Virus record (IMG/VR): IMGVR_UViG_3300025009_000043 | Location: 1-38,275 of that record | Length of the DNA: 38,275 nucleotides | Origin: a virus | Reading direction: 5' to 3' (one strand) | Part shown: positions 32,639-38,275 of the stretch, one piece after another | How the letters are laid out: every line of letters starts with the position of its first letter | How positions within the stretch are numbered: the first letter of the stretch is position 1 | Made by a program: the position numbers and the translations under genes | The notes under the pieces: model-generated | Told to the model about the DNA's origin: nothing | Databases searched by the model: none | Seen by the model: the letters and a program-made list of their open reading frames with translations, nothing else

Positions 32639-32983
32639 TTAAAACTCGCTAAAATAAATATTTGCTTGCTCTTTACACCAATTCACATACTCACGGTATC
32701 TTATATAATCATTGTTAACGGGGTCAGAAATACCTTTGTTTATCAAAGCAAATTCATCGTCTTGACTATAAACCATGCGGATTAACGCAACAACCCCTTC
32801 TGACTTGGTTGTGATTATAGCGGTTTGAAGAGTTGTTTCAGCTTTATATATAACTCGTTCTCCAGACTCTTCTCTTACAACATTTTTATTTTGCATAATT
32901 TCAAAACACGAATTGCCAAAATTTCTAACTTGAAAATCAACAGGAACATAATCCATTTCCGCTGTCATTCTTTTAATTTCCAT
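32639..32983 (-). CDS. Late protein of unknown function downstream of the reverse transcriptase
   Basis: 114 residues, ribosome site AAGGAG. It overlaps the reverse transcriptase gene by 11 bases and is therefore coupled to it. Beta-rich with DYVPVDFQVRNFGNSCFEIM, and ends in a helix with YVNWCKEQANIYFSEF. It is not the helical bundle expected of the DGR accessory protein Avd. Similar small proteins precede CD1375-like genes in other phages, so it is more likely tail-related. Confidence 0.6.
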   Translation of the reverse strand: MEIKRMTAEMDYVPVDFQVRNFGNSCFEIMQNKNVVREESGERVIYKAETTLQTAIITTKSEGVVALIRMVYSQDDEFALINKGISDPVNNDYIRYREYVNWCKEQANIYFSEF

Positions 32984-33995
32984 TTCGTATATTCTCCTTC
33001 ATTTGTTTGAAATGTGGTTGCATATATCTTTTAAAAAGTGGGTATGAATCAGAGTGCTTTAGCCATCCGAAGTAGCTCATTAATGATGATGCGGTGTGTT
33101 TTGATGGCTTTTTGGAATAGCTGAAGCTTTTTCTTCGCATCCGTTTTGTGATCCGTTTCCTGATAAAGGTTTTATTTCTTTGAAAGCAGAACCCGCAAAA
33201 ATCGAGCGGGCGTTTAGAAACATTGAATATTTGCCAATTGTCTTTAATTTGTAGATGTTCTTGATTAACAAATTCGTTTAGTTCATCAAATTTCTTCCGC
33301 AGTTCACGCTTGTTGGGGCCAAACAAAACCATATCATCCATATACCGTATGTAATAGTCTATACCAAGTTTCTGTTTGATAAAGTAATCAGTGCCCTGTA
33401 AATAGAAGTTGGCAAACCACTGACTAGTATAATTCCCAATTGGGATTCCCGGACCGTGACTATCAATTATTGAATCGATAAGCCATAAGCAATCATTATC
33501 TTTAATAATCGCTCTAAACTTTTGTTTTAGAATTTCTTTGTCGATTGATGGGTAAAACTTTCGAATGTCAATTTTTAGGCAATAACGCGTTGATTTTGGG
33601 TCTGTCTGTATCCATTTTTCACACACCTTCTTTGCATATAATCCGCCTCGATTAGGAATGCTGGCACAAGACCATTTATACATCCCGCGCATGATTAAAG
33701 GCCTAATGACATTGATTAAGCACCAATGAATAATTTGATCCGGATAATAGCGTGGTTTAAAAATAGTTCTTTCTTTATTTGACAAACCATCATAAATCTT
33801 AGCCTCAATATACTTTGAAGGGATATATGATTTTTCTTCAAGCAATGATTTTACATAAGCAAGTGCTTCGGCATTATTTTTAAAAACCATCTGAACCGCT
33901 CTTTTTTTTCTCTTTCCTTTTGCTGAATCCAAAAGTGATTTCGAAATATTTGTTTCCGAACAAATGTCTTGATATAAAAAACCTTTTCTTTTCAT
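32973..33995 (-). CDS. Diversity-generating retroelement reverse transcriptase
   Basis: 340 residues. RT motifs in order: a basic N-terminus with KERTIFKPRYYPDQIIHWCL, the first catalytic Asp in LKIDIRKFYPSID (140-152), the DGR-type motif GIPIGNYTSQWFANFYL (183-199) with SQ in place of the usual QG of retroviral enzymes, and YMDD at 218-221. The C-terminus is basic (RKRITKRMRRKSFSYSKKPS). There is no group II intron maturase or endonuclease domain. It copies the template-repeat RNA with errors at adenines; the cDNA replaces the variable repeat of the fibre gene. Ribosome site AGGAC; template repeat 110 bases upstream. Confidence 0.92.
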   Translation of the reverse strand: MKRKGFLYQDICSETNISKSLLDSAKGKRKKRAVQMVFKNNAEALAYVKSLLEEKSYIPSKYIEAKIYDGLSNKERTIFKPRYYPDQIIHWCLINVIRPLIMRGMYKWSCASIPNRGGLYAKKVCEKWIQTDPKSTRYCLKIDIRKFYPSIDKEILKQKFRAIIKDNDCLWLIDSIIDSHGPGIPIGNYTSQWFANFYLQGTDYFIKQKLGIDYYIRYMDDMVLFGPNKRELRKKFDELNEFVNQEHLQIKDNWQIFNVSKRPLDFCGFCFQRNKTFIRKRITKRMRRKSFSYSKKPSKHTASSLMSYFGWLKHSDSYPLFKRYMQPHFKQMKENIRNGN

Positions 33996-34104
33996 GATGT
34001 CCTATCTTTCTATGGCAATGATGGCTTTTCAATTATTTACTAAGCCATTCCCTTTATAGAGCCATTTTTCAGCAAGTGCTGAGGGACTTTTGGCGCAATT
34101 ACAA

Positions 34105-34206
34105 TAGAAAGACGAGCGCCGATGCTCAGGTTCGTGTTACCAAGACTGTTGTTGAGATTCCAGTAGAACGGGCCGGCATTGGAGCTGTTGTTCCAATTGC
34201 CGCCAA
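34105..34206 (-). repeat. DGR template repeat (TR)
   Basis: 102 bases matching 34312-34413. Read on the minus strand it is rich in AAC and AAT codons (24 adenines in the 33 aligned codons), the usual design for a mutable template. The last 16 bases (GGCGCTCGTCTTTCTA) are identical to the variable repeat and form the putative initiation site. It lies between the fibre gene and the reverse transcriptase on the same strand. It has an open frame only because it mirrors the fibre gene. Confidence 0.92.
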
Positions 34207-34275
34207 ACCCGACAACAGACAAGAAGCGCGCCCAAAGTCCCTATATATTTTGTGGAACATTAAAGCCAAAGCTTT

Positions 34276-34293
34276 TGGGGGAGGCATCCCCCA
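34276..34293 (-). other. DGR target-recognition hairpin after the variable repeat
   Basis: TGGGGGA and TCCCCCA form a perfect 7-bp GC-rich stem around a 4-base loop, GGCA on the plus strand. It begins 7 bases after the fibre stop codon and 18 bases after the variable repeat. Comparable hairpins or cruciforms behind variable repeats are needed for efficient retrohoming in the Bordetella phage DGR. It might also act as a weak terminator. Confidence 0.75.
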
Positions 34294-34300
34294 CGCCCCC

Positions 34301-36940
34301 TTAAGGGCGTTTAGAAAGACGAGCGCCGACGCTCAAGAACGCAATACCAAGACTGCCGTAGAGAGCCCAGAAGAACGGGCCGGCAAGGGAACCGAAGCTC
34401 CAACCGCCGCCAACAAAAGCAGTTCGATCTCCGGTGTTTTGATAATAATAATCGGAGAAGTATAACACTGACGAACCACCAGTAATTGAAGTTGGAAATT
34501 TTGCAAATGGGTACAATGCGTCATAACCAAGTTCAGAACAATAACCGTCGGAATTTATGTTGACGTAACTCAATTTCACAAACGGCGATGCATAGTCTCC
34601 TGCCACTGAGGCGGTATCGTTGTACAAGGATGGGAGTAAGCATATCCAAGTTTGATTATTTGAAATTTTAACCCCATCGATGTTTTTATAGGTGTTGCCA
34701 TAGGGGTTTTCCATGCCGCGCCAAATACAAGAGTATTTCCCATCGTTTGCGGTTTTAGCACCTGACGAGGCGACGACCGCGTCACACTCACCAGTTTTGT
34801 TTGCGACATTATAAACCATTTGAGTTAGAGTTGTAGTAATCGCGGCACCGTCAAAGATAATTTCGGATTGACCAGCCGCTGGTGTATCAACGGTAATTGA
34901 CACAATTTTTCGGTCTTGAGCAACTTGTCTTCCACCTTGAGATGTTCCAATGTCAATCATTTGCCCGACACGATATAACGCTGCTTGTGCGTTCGTTAAT
35001 ATAACTCTATTAACGGCTGTTTCAGCAACCAATGGAAGGTGCGTAGCGGTGTATTGACCAGCAGTAAACCCTTGCAAAATACTTTGCATATTTTTTGTTG
35101 CAAATTCAATCATCATTGGGATTTGAACTAAATCTACATATTCAGCAACGTCTGTGATTTGATATTTCGAAGCAGTACCAAGCCCGTCATTTAATCTTGC
35201 GGCCGTTCTAAAATTAGCGCGTGAATACGAAACTTTTTGAATAGCGTTTGTCACTGATTTAAGTTTGCTATCAACGCTAAACGAGCCTTCGTAAGCCCCA
35301 ATAAAGTAACTGTCATTCTCTGTGCCATCTTCGTTTGTGAATGATAATGGGGTGCGGTATCCGGCAAGTTTTGATTGGCACATCCAAATGTAATGGTAGT
35401 TTGTTCCACTTTCCGTTTTCCATTCTTCTTTTATATAATACTTTGGAACTCTAACAAACACATTGCCATCTAAATGAGTTTCTCTTGTGCGCTGGAATAT
35501 TGGAATATAATCGAAACTATTATATACAACTTCATCATCTACACCAACAGAGGCGACAAGCCCTGTGGCAGAACCAATTTTTAATTCGCCGCCAAACCGA
35601 GAAACTCTTTCTAACGTTGGAGATGACTGACCGACAATTTCACGGACACCATATTCTTTGTAGTCTAACAATTCTAATACATCTTCTATAACATCGATAC
35701 GATGTTCGTTGTTCAGGATGTCTTGCTGGGCTTGCTCGACGAGTGGCTCGACGATATCGAGGCGGTCTTCGTTAGCAAGAATAACTGTTTCAATATCGCG
35801 TGTGTCGGTCATGTCAATATCACCAGCGACTACCACGACATCGGCGTCAAGTGCGTGACCGTTAACCGTCGTAGTCTTATCAACCTTAGCGGCTAACGCT
35901 GTGACTAAATCTACGCCCTCAGGGTATTGGTCGAATATCGCTAATATTTCAGTGATAGTATTAACCACGCTATCGGCGTCAGTGCCGAGTAGTGCCACGA
36001 GCGTATTTAAGTCAGTAACTTGCTGTGCTGTCATTAAACCAGCGAGAGATGTTGTAGCGCTACCAATAAATGCTTTTAGTTCAGCAAGCGTGATTACGGT
36101 TGCGGTTGTGTCGTTTTGATAAGTTATTGTAATTAAGTCCGTTCCTGTTCTAACGATACTTTTAACTAACAAACTCACCTTTGTATCAGTATATGTTTTA
36201 ACCGCTTTTTGTGACGCTATTTTAACATCACTGTTTGCCTCTAATGTGCCATCAGTATCAATGTATGTCAAAGGAATCTTTAACTCATCTTCGGCTTTCG
36301 TTGCATAAGTTGTTGTGATAACATTTCCGCTTGCGTCTTGTTCTGCTTTTTTAACCGTTGTTGTGCCGTCAATAAAATCGGCGTCTTGTTCTTCAAGCGC
36401 TACAATATCAGCTTCCGCTTCTGTCATTCTTGCCGCTTGATCCGCGAACACTGCACTAACTGCTGTATAGATTTCTTCGTATGTATCGGCTTCTACAAGT
36501 TCATAGTTGTTTATGCCATCTTGAACAAGATAAAAAGCCAAATCAAGATTTTCATAAGTGCTATTTGTTAAATAACCAACATACAAAGCGTTTCTTCCAG
36601 CGTAGTAAGTTAAGCCAATTAAATCGAGTGTGTAATAGAAAACTTGATAACTTGTTTCAACCGTATCTTCAATAATAGTCCATGAAGCCGTTGACATTGG
36701 CAATAACGTTGTTGGCCTGCCTTTTGGCGACATAAACGTGACAAGAGGTGCGCCACCGCTAAATGTTCCAGCAGGCAACGCAATAGCAATTTGTTTTGTG
36801 CCAACATCACCTTGATTGATTGTTGCTTCTTCATCTACAAATGTGTATTTGCCAGTTCCACTATCATAGGTTAAACTTCCTTGCTTTGTTAAATGGTAAC
36901 TTGCGTCATAAAAATATACCGCTCTTGCTGTTATCGCCAT
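34301..36940 (-). CDS. Tail fibre / receptor-binding protein with DGR-diversified C-type-lectin domain
   Basis: 879 residues, ribosome site AAGGAG. The N-terminal 145 residues are beta-rich (ITARAVYFYDASYHLTKQGS) and resemble baseplate-attached fibre heads (BppU-like). A helical and trimeric-looking middle follows, with IASQKAVKTYTDTKV and VNGHALDADVVV, both recurring in phage fibres, and a coiled segment around LNNEHRIDVIEDVLELLDYK. From about residue 440 to the end is the C-type-lectin/FGE-like domain of DGR targets, including YSCIWRGMENPYGNTYKNID. The last 36 residues carry the variable repeat, whose surface positions would contact the receptor. The protein probably decides host range. Confidence 0.9.
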   Translation of the reverse strand: MAITARAVYFYDASYHLTKQGSLTYDSGTGKYTFVDEEATINQGDVGTKQIAIALPAGTFSGGAPLVTFMSPKGRPTTLLPMSTASWTIIEDTVETSYQVFYYTLDLIGLTYYAGRNALYVGYLTNSTYENLDLAFYLVQDGINNYELVEADTYEEIYTAVSAVFADQAARMTEAEADIVALEEQDADFIDGTTTVKKAEQDASGNVITTTYATKAEDELKIPLTYIDTDGTLEANSDVKIASQKAVKTYTDTKVSLLVKSIVRTGTDLITITYQNDTTATVITLAELKAFIGSATTSLAGLMTAQQVTDLNTLVALLGTDADSVVNTITEILAIFDQYPEGVDLVTALAAKVDKTTTVNGHALDADVVVVAGDIDMTDTRDIETVILANEDRLDIVEPLVEQAQQDILNNEHRIDVIEDVLELLDYKEYGVREIVGQSSPTLERVSRFGGELKIGSATGLVASVGVDDEVVYNSFDYIPIFQRTRETHLDGNVFVRVPKYYIKEEWKTESGTNYHYIWMCQSKLAGYRTPLSFTNEDGTENDSYFIGAYEGSFSVDSKLKSVTNAIQKVSYSRANFRTAARLNDGLGTASKYQITDVAEYVDLVQIPMMIEFATKNMQSILQGFTAGQYTATHLPLVAETAVNRVILTNAQAALYRVGQMIDIGTSQGGRQVAQDRKIVSITVDTPAAGQSEIIFDGAAITTTLTQMVYNVANKTGECDAVVASSGAKTANDGKYSCIWRGMENPYGNTYKNIDGVKISNNQTWICLLPSLYNDTASVAGDYASPFVKLSYVNINSDGYCSELGYDALYPFAKFPTSITGGSSVLYFSDYYYQNTGDRTAFVGGGWSFGSLAGPFFWALYGSLGIAFLSVGARLSKRP
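34312..34413 (-). repeat. DGR variable repeat (VR) at the 3' end of the fibre gene
   Basis: Encodes fibre residues about 844-876. Against the template repeat, 22 of 102 positions differ. Nineteen are at template adenines and the other three are C-to-T changes. Fourteen codons are altered, almost all former Asn, Ser, Thr, Tyr or Ile codons, while the Gly, Pro, Trp and Leu framework (AGPF, SLG, GARLS) is kept. Confidence 0.93.
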
Positions 36941-37758: not shown

Positions 37759-38275
37759 TTAAATTGGGAATCCTGTTGCGCTATCTATTGTGGAATAATT
37801 CTTATCTGTTGCTTTTGCTCTTGCATAGCACGTAACTGTTCCTAAACCACTTAAAATTGTAACATTTACAGTTGCACTTGGTGCTATTAGTCCTCTTGAT
37901 GTTGTTGGTGTTTCGTTTTGGTCGGAATATATTGTTGCATAAACAGTGTCATTATTTGTTATTTGGAAAACAAAACTATCTGTCGCACCACCATCAGTCC
38001 ATGATATAAAGTTTATAGACGGCTCTGTTGTGCTATCAATAAAATTAAATGTTGGTGTTAATAAGTCGCTTTCTATTATCGCTGCACTAAATGTTTGTCG
38101 CGTTCCTTCTGTATAATTTAATGTTGCTGCTAACGTGTCAGTTTCATAAATGCTTATAGATATATATTCTCTATCTTGATAATTTAATGTCGCAACAAGC
38201 AAATCACTTTCAAGCATATCTAATATGAATATTTCATTTTCTTGGAATACGAACGCTGCTGTTAAGTAGTCAGTC
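37759..38275 (-). CDS. Tail/baseplate hub-like protein, C-terminal part (same gene as 1..2835)
   Basis: This is the 3' end of the gene that begins at 2835; the stop is at 37759-37761. Only 37759-38148 is new sequence, as the rest is the terminal overlap. The C-terminus holds about four degenerate repeats of 20-24 residues, each with a core such as ETDTLAATLNY or ESDLLVATLNY, followed by a beta-rich domain of about 70 residues ending in SATGFPI. An ATG at 38215-38217 is internal and should not be used as a gene start. The next gene downstream begins at 37733. Confidence 0.8.
   Translation of the reverse strand, partial: TDYLTAAFVFQENEIFILDMLESDLLVATLNYQDREYISISIYETDTLAATLNYTEGTRQTFSAAIIESDLLTPTFNFIDSTTEPSINFISWTDGGATDSFVFQITNNDTVYATIYSDQNETPTTSRGLIAPSATVNVTILSGLGTVTCYARAKATDKNYSTIDSATGFPI
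38149..38275. repeat. Terminal direct repeat, right copy
   Basis: Exact copy of the first 127 bases of the window. Removing it leaves a circle of 38,148 bases in which the tail hub gene is intact. Confidence 0.95.

Follow-up and report, generated by a model that had tools for sequence, protein, structure and literature searches.

A phage tail-fibre diversity-generating retroelement of probable Avd-free architecture, with RT-18 as its candidate template-RNA scaffold

In the virus record IMGVR_UViG_3300025009_000043 (the window: the whole stretch of 38,275 nucleotides analyzed here), a reverse transcriptase (RT) gene lies beside two similar repeats, one of which ends a tail fibre gene. The locus raises the question of whether this is a diversity-generating retroelement (DGR), of which kind, and how it would work without the Avd protein of the DGR of Bordetella phage BPP-1. 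We are highly confident that the cassette is a DGR of the Avd-free architecture target-template repeat (TR)-RT, i.e., the lineage 3 of Wu et al. to which crAssphage LMMB has been assigned. All its parts were on the minus strand, in the order fibre (with the variable repeat, VR), TR, RNA and RT:

1-38,275, linear IMG/VR virus record, 33.8% GC
34301-36940, minus strand, target tail fibre gene (879 aa, intact open reading frame, ORF)
34304-35659, minus strand, C-terminal 452 aa of the fibre, predicted DGR variable-protein (CLec-like) domain
34312-34413, minus strand, VR at the 3' end of the fibre gene, with 13 changed residues between 846 and 871
34105-34206, minus strand, TR (102 nt, intergenic, 25 adenines, AAC/AAT-rich)
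34004-34084, minus strand, RT-18 RNA (Rfam RF03021), proposed structured spacer and scaffold of the template RNA
32973-33995, minus strand, DGR RT (340 aa, intact ORF; motifs IPIGNYTSQ and YMDD)

The TR and VR (offset 207) were 78% identical, and their differences were concentrated at adenines. On the coding strand, 19 of the 22 differences over 102 nt were at TR adenines (86%, against the level of at least 75% by which a DGR is recognized): A to G (9), A to T (8), A to C (2) and C to T (3), with none at a TR G or T (Fisher p = 1.1e-12). The bias vanished when the VR was taken as the template, and this one-sidedness ruled out a chance repeat or an ordinary duplication. Moreover, 19 of the 25 TR adenines were changed (76%), close to the ~75% that full randomisation would give. 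The preliminary description of this DNA had reported the same repeat coordinates and the same counts of differences, both of which were recovered exactly, while its figure of 24 adenines in the aligned codons holds for the 33 whole codons. The non-adenine differences were found only at 34391, 34343 and 34336, all of them C to T and silent in the present VR codons (GGT/GGC, ATT/ATC and TTG/CTG). AAC and AAT codons cannot become stop codons by adenine mutation. The VR lies at the 3' end of its target gene with the non-coding TR nearby, and scanning the whole window with the TR returned this single VR (74 of the 77 non-adenine positions matching, as compared with at most 34 anywhere else) and no additional VRs within the window. 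Among 78 TR/VR pairs of the RT-18 clade, 1200 of 2182 TR adenines were changed versus 30 of 6579 other bases (0.46%).

RT trees were built from 80 viral contigs, 80 prokaryote-genome loci, BPP-1, LBR48, and group II intron, CRISPR and other RTs. In these trees the window RT, which carries the SQ motif together with YxDD, fell among the DGR RTs and apart from the group II intron and CRISPR RTs, and the five non-DGR RTs (group II intron, CRISPR and other), which are without the SQ motif, stood apart with support of 96/96. In the 149-row tree the window was placed in a 99-row clade (SH-aLRT 100) with zero members bearing Avd, and in the second tree it shared one clade with crAssphage LMMB (support 100/99). 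Furthermore, the RT matched PHROG 1423 (RT; 1.8e-102) and RVT_1 (9.1e-11), and its best solved relative (residues 11-322) was PDB 8ub7 (6.1e-30; also 8ub8 to 8ube), a series labelled just "Reverse transcriptase" in the database, which we take to be the BPP-1 bRT complex. A retron, group II intron or defence-associated RT (DRT) identity was rejected, as the profile scores were far under the NCBIfam cut-offs and the tree grouped the RT with DGRs. Plasmid RTs of Vibrio and Aeromonas (L167:1398-3095 and L168:1590-3275) also have the SQ motif and group with DGRs; on the other strand they have a gene for a divergent, Avd-like four-helix bundle, and no TR/VR lies within 2 kb.

For the target, the second half of the fibre matched PHROG 5302 (tail protein; 1.6e-41), and an AlphaFold2 (AF2) model of the C-terminal domain, based on a 33-sequence alignment, reached a pLDDT of 86.8 and a pTM of 0.86. 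The only PDB matches below 0.001 in Foldseek were three chains of 5vf4 (the DGR variable protein TaqVP of Thermus aquaticus; 6.2e-11), followed by BPP-1 Mtd entries below significance, while predicted phage tail-collar fibres matched the domain at up to 4e-35. As modelled, the domain has the C-type lectin fold of DGR variable proteins. TaqVP and the window fibre have this variable-protein domain fold in common at ~15% identity (TM 0.40-0.48), but in the window it belongs to a phage tail fibre that has a long N-terminal portion. From its predicted fold and its position, the fibre tip probably contacts the host surface or a receptor. Thus far the preliminary description was borne out: the RT with GNYTSQ and YMDD was found and falls inside the DGR clade in both trees, the 879-residue fibre gene ending in the VR is intact, and a DGR aimed at the lectin-type domain of the tail fibre agrees with the RT tree and bRT match, the adenine bias, the target fold and the hairpin after the VR (see below).

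Pfam bAvd had zero matches in the window, and was absent in 44 of 50 viral records and 28 of 39 prokaryote genomes with a related RT (positive control BPP-1, 2.2e-37). With a profile iterated from BPP-1 Avd, only distant DGRs proved to have Avd a short way upstream of the RT, and neither Pfam bAvd nor this profile uncovered a hidden Avd near the RT in the clade. The gap between VR and TR was 105 nt in the window and 141 nt (median) in the clade, versus 394-848 nt in Avd-bearing loci, and therefore an avd gene would not fit; the spacer between TR and RT was ~110 nt.

PMC7290462 describes crAssphage LMMB as belonging to lineage 3 of Wu et al., with the order target-TR-RT and without avd. The window has this order and likewise no avd, and resembles LMMB in the arrangement target-VR-TR-RT, in the RT clade and in a C-terminal C-type-lectin-type tail-collar fibre as target, although the RTs are well diverged. 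With respect to the CLec3-class repeat of lineage 3, the window fold is of the DGR variable-protein type, an assignment made independently of the CLec3 profile of Wu et al. Since the window RT lies in the LMMB clade and lineage 3 has been published, the Avd-free state is a known branch and not a discovery, and the element in itself is a further case of a phage DGR targeting a tail fibre. The spacers of crAss-like phages gave weaker RT-18-type matches (25.7 bits for C0531BW4 and 33.2 bits for cr50_1). A further relative is Lactobacillus phage LBR48, whose RT is 43% identical to the window RT over its full length, with an RT-18 RNA (59 bits) just upstream of the RT and, as in the window, no bAvd in 48 kb; it differs in that TR/VR were not found in the first 7.8 kb of the record, the RT lying at the start of a linear record.

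BPP-1 and the window share an A-to-N TR/VR pair, homologous RTs (bRT in BPP-1), a VR at the 3' end of a receptor-binding gene, a GC hairpin after the VR and a structured RNA between TR and RT. However, BPP-1 has avd between mtd and TR plus the larger Phage_DGR RNA, while the window is without Avd and has the smaller RT-18; neither Avd beside the RT nor a Phage_DGR (RF03022) spacer RNA, the features of a BPP-1-type element, was present. The element had been called a complete DGR like that of BPP-1: it is complete as a lineage-3-type cassette, but it is not of the BPP-1 type, Avd being absent in the record and in the clade.

Around the two repeats, the following candidate homing signals were found, the roles of the first two being assigned from BPP-1 (IMH, initiation of mutagenic homing):

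34105-34122, minus strand, candidate IMH*, the invariant 18-nt 3' end of the TR, common to the VR
34312-34329, minus strand, candidate IMH, the invariant 18-nt 3' end of the VR
34293-34310, minus strand, hairpin ACGCCCTTAAGGGGGCGT, spanning the fibre stop codon and nearer the VR than the GC hairpin
34277-34292, minus strand, GC hairpin GGGGGA-TGCC-TCCCCC, 3' of the VR, candidate homing hairpin or cruciform

The hairpin region after the VR had a DNA fold z of -3.3. Hairpins of at least 6 bp followed the VR in 44 of 77 clade members, as compared with 6.3 predicted by shuffles and 6 in a control region, and many of them were G5...C5 stems. The window thus has the GC hairpin or cruciform downstream of the VR that is looked for in a DGR. 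In BPP-1 such a hairpin is required for efficient homing (PMC3240598), but the window loop TGCC is outside the GRNA loop consensus of that study. These hairpins, together with the structured RNA between TR and RT, had been overlooked by the preliminary description.

For the window phage we infer RNA function, priming, homing and receptor binding along the following path. The intergenic TR and the RT-18 spacer after it would be transcribed together; RT-18, by its position and by analogy with the BPP-1 spacer, would fold and recruit or prime the RT; the RT would copy the TR, misincorporating opposite adenines; and, steered by the 18-nt 3' end common to both repeats and by the GC hairpin just downstream, the cDNA would take the place of the VR at the end of the fibre gene. 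As a result, 13 residues would be randomised on a C-type-lectin-type tip that probably touches the host surface.

Among relatives, homing was directly visible. Two contigs from different metagenomes (L002 and L003) had three differences over 9685 bp, all at VR sites over TR adenines (chance ~ (25/9685)^3), and another pair (L032 and L033) had 19 VR differences, 18 of them over TR adenines, with one TR change; in other near-identical pairs the VRs were identical to each other. Therefore members of the lineage do home.

Several points weigh against a working Avd-free DGR in the window phage: i) the three silent C-to-T differences suggest no recent full overwrite of its VR; ii) no second copy of the phage was found among the viral contigs, by an exact TR search or by a terminase search; iii) folded as a single sequence, the window spacer was not more stable than shuffles (z -0.5); iv) function without Avd is argued from evolution, Avd being essential in BPP-1; v) the record is a linear fragment, which taken alone leaves room for avd elsewhere in the genome. 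The first of these points tells against the earlier statement that the phage actively varies its fibre, activity having been seen only in relatives. It also bears on the alternative that the DGR is decayed or dormant, its repeat bias a fossil of homing that has ceased. Consistent with decay, 3 of the 77 non-adenine positions of the window VR differ versus 30 of 6579 in the clade, more than in almost all relatives, and the phage is known from a single record. Yet the RT is intact with its catalytic motifs, the RNA helices, the hairpin and the fibre have all been kept, and a pattern of silent changes only points to selection on the fibre; we therefore regard decay as unlikely, though deserving of some weight.

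Between TR and RT, a cmscan search found RT-18 at 34006-34081 with 47.9 bits (gathering score 41.3), the only family above threshold there, and its helices covary; the window spacer scored 67 bits against our own model R1. RT-18 was in the same place in all 13 of the closest relatives with an intact upstream region, and in further relatives too. An alignment of 21 spacers showed two main helices and a short apical helix, with 94.1% of cells paired (62.6% when shuffled) and a covariation of 0.906 (0.307 when shuffled and 0.05-0.17 with the partner slid); 11 of the 13 pairs had compensatory changes on both sides. Moreover, when the RNA model from the alignment was searched over ~1.5 Mb of loci, its matches were almost only adjoining an RT. 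Among loci with at least 600 nt upstream of the RT, 84 had RT-18 only, 25 Avd only, none both and 23 neither, an exclusivity that is essentially one split of the tree and counts as one evolutionary event, not 84.

Other DGRs have other RNAs at this site. In BPP-1 the corresponding spacer belongs to Rfam RF03022, "Bacteriophage Diversity-Generating Retroelement RNA" (104.7 bits), and several Avd-bearing relatives have RT-14 between TR and RT. RT-18, RT-14 and Phage_DGR have in common a 3' module, helix-(U)AGUA-hairpin-GAA-helix, whose AGUA/GAA resembles the sarcin-ricin (bulged-G) loop, while an extra 5' domain in RT-14 and Phage_DGR is absent from RT-18. Counting the module in model matches (83 of 84) is partly circular, since the model to which they were fitted includes the module, and reliance is placed instead on the Rfam consensus lines of these three separate families.

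The folded BPP-1 spacer recruits bRT-Avd, and the cDNA is primed from an internal adenine (PMC12875486). By position and by analogy with that spacer, RT-18 would be the template-RNA scaffold of Avd-free DGRs. More broadly, we lean towards a reading in which RT-18, RT-14 by its shared 3' module, and probably RT-17 and RT-4 are all DGR template-RNA scaffolds, with an RNA of ~80 nt and the RT alone doing the work of RT, Avd and a 127-144-nt RNA in BPP-1-like DGRs, i.e., a minimal two-component targeted mutator. No literature linking RT-18 or Rfam with DGRs was found, in a search that lay outside the original RT-18 description (Weinberg et al. 2017) and Wu et al. 2018, and the newness of the link is unproven. 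What the locus adds is a testable function, across more than 80 relatives, for an RNA family known only by number, and RT-18 as the scaffold of Avd-free DGRs is the part worth following. The natural contrast between RT-18 without Avd and RT-14 or Phage_DGR with Avd can show the role of Avd, and whether an RT plus an RNA scaffold of ~80 nt suffices for adenine-directed mutagenesis; if so, this would matter for building smaller targeted mutagenesis tools.

Related arrangements were seen at three other loci. In a Christensenella assembly (L101:7135-7871) the cassette is permuted, with the TR/VR pair and an RT-18-type RNA downstream of the RT. The spacer of Butyrivibrio phage Arawn (L175:2367-2476) has a sub-threshold match to Rfam RT-4 (49 of 73.5 bits) and also matches RT-18, a hint from sequence that RT-4 belongs to the same RNA superfamily. 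In Fervidicella metallireducens AeB (L081:5205-5963, the same sequence as L130), three tandem units of ~304 bp, each a TR-like repeat followed by an RT-14 RNA, precede a single RT with Avd; some of the differences between the templates are at adenines, and this is possibly a multi-template DGR.

RT-18 might instead regulate the RT gene in cis as its leader, or act as a terminator between template RNA and RT: it runs up to the RT ribosome-binding site, and its Rfam title gives no function. However, it begins ~20 nt after the TR, much like the BPP-1 spacer; its 3' module recurs in RT-14 and Phage_DGR, which occupy that site in Avd-bearing DGRs; and in the permuted Christensenella cassette the TR/VR pair and the RNA moved together past the RT, where the RNA is no RT leader. 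A leader or terminator is thus distinctly improbable as compared with a scaffold.

The work of Avd might also have been taken over by a protein encoded next to the RT. In the window this position is occupied by:

32639-32983, minus strand, 114-aa ORF overlapping the RT stop, in the slot of a tail-fibre-assembly-chaperone-like gene of relatives

Of 92 RT-18 clade loci, 79 have such a chaperone-like gene immediately after the RT (for example, L090:1576-2124), as against 0 of 27 Avd loci, and in most cases it overlaps or abuts the RT stop; this speaks for a substitute accessory protein. Some members, however, have Phage_tail_APC (PF16778) and match tail-fibre-assembly PHROGs, and therefore the order fibre-DGR-chaperone looks like an ordinary tail module; moreover, the window ORF in that slot had no detectable homology to the chaperone-like family and is not regarded as DGR machinery. 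We give very little credence to a chaperone-like substitute for Avd. In a search for substitute accessory genes, only tail-assembly-like and lysin-like families were widespread beside the RT.

Finally, the element might be of the BPP-1 type, with its avd beyond the sequenced fragment or provided by the host. This would suit a linear virus record and the 11 of 39 prokaryote genomes with a related RT that hold bAvd somewhere, but is extremely improbable, since Avd-bearing relatives have Avd immediately upstream of the RT or TR, where the gaps in the window leave no room, since the other 28 genomes and the complete LBR48 phage genome are without bAvd, and since lineage 3 DGRs are described without avd in PMC7290462.

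As for the phage itself, the neighbouring genes (terminase, portal, DnaC-like loader, two DNA methyltransferases, ERCC4-type nuclease and Erf-like protein) mark the window, on sequence grounds, as a tailed phage, its terminase being 27% identical to those of Streptococcus phages. As judged from the RT alone, the phage probably infects a gut bacterium of the Bacillota or Mycoplasmatota, because the nearest RTs sit in uncultured Bacilli, Clostridia and "Mycoplasma" assemblies, many of them from gut by their record titles. In addition, three imperfect 39-nt repeats are found at 38036-38212 of the window, inside the ORF at 37759-38217.

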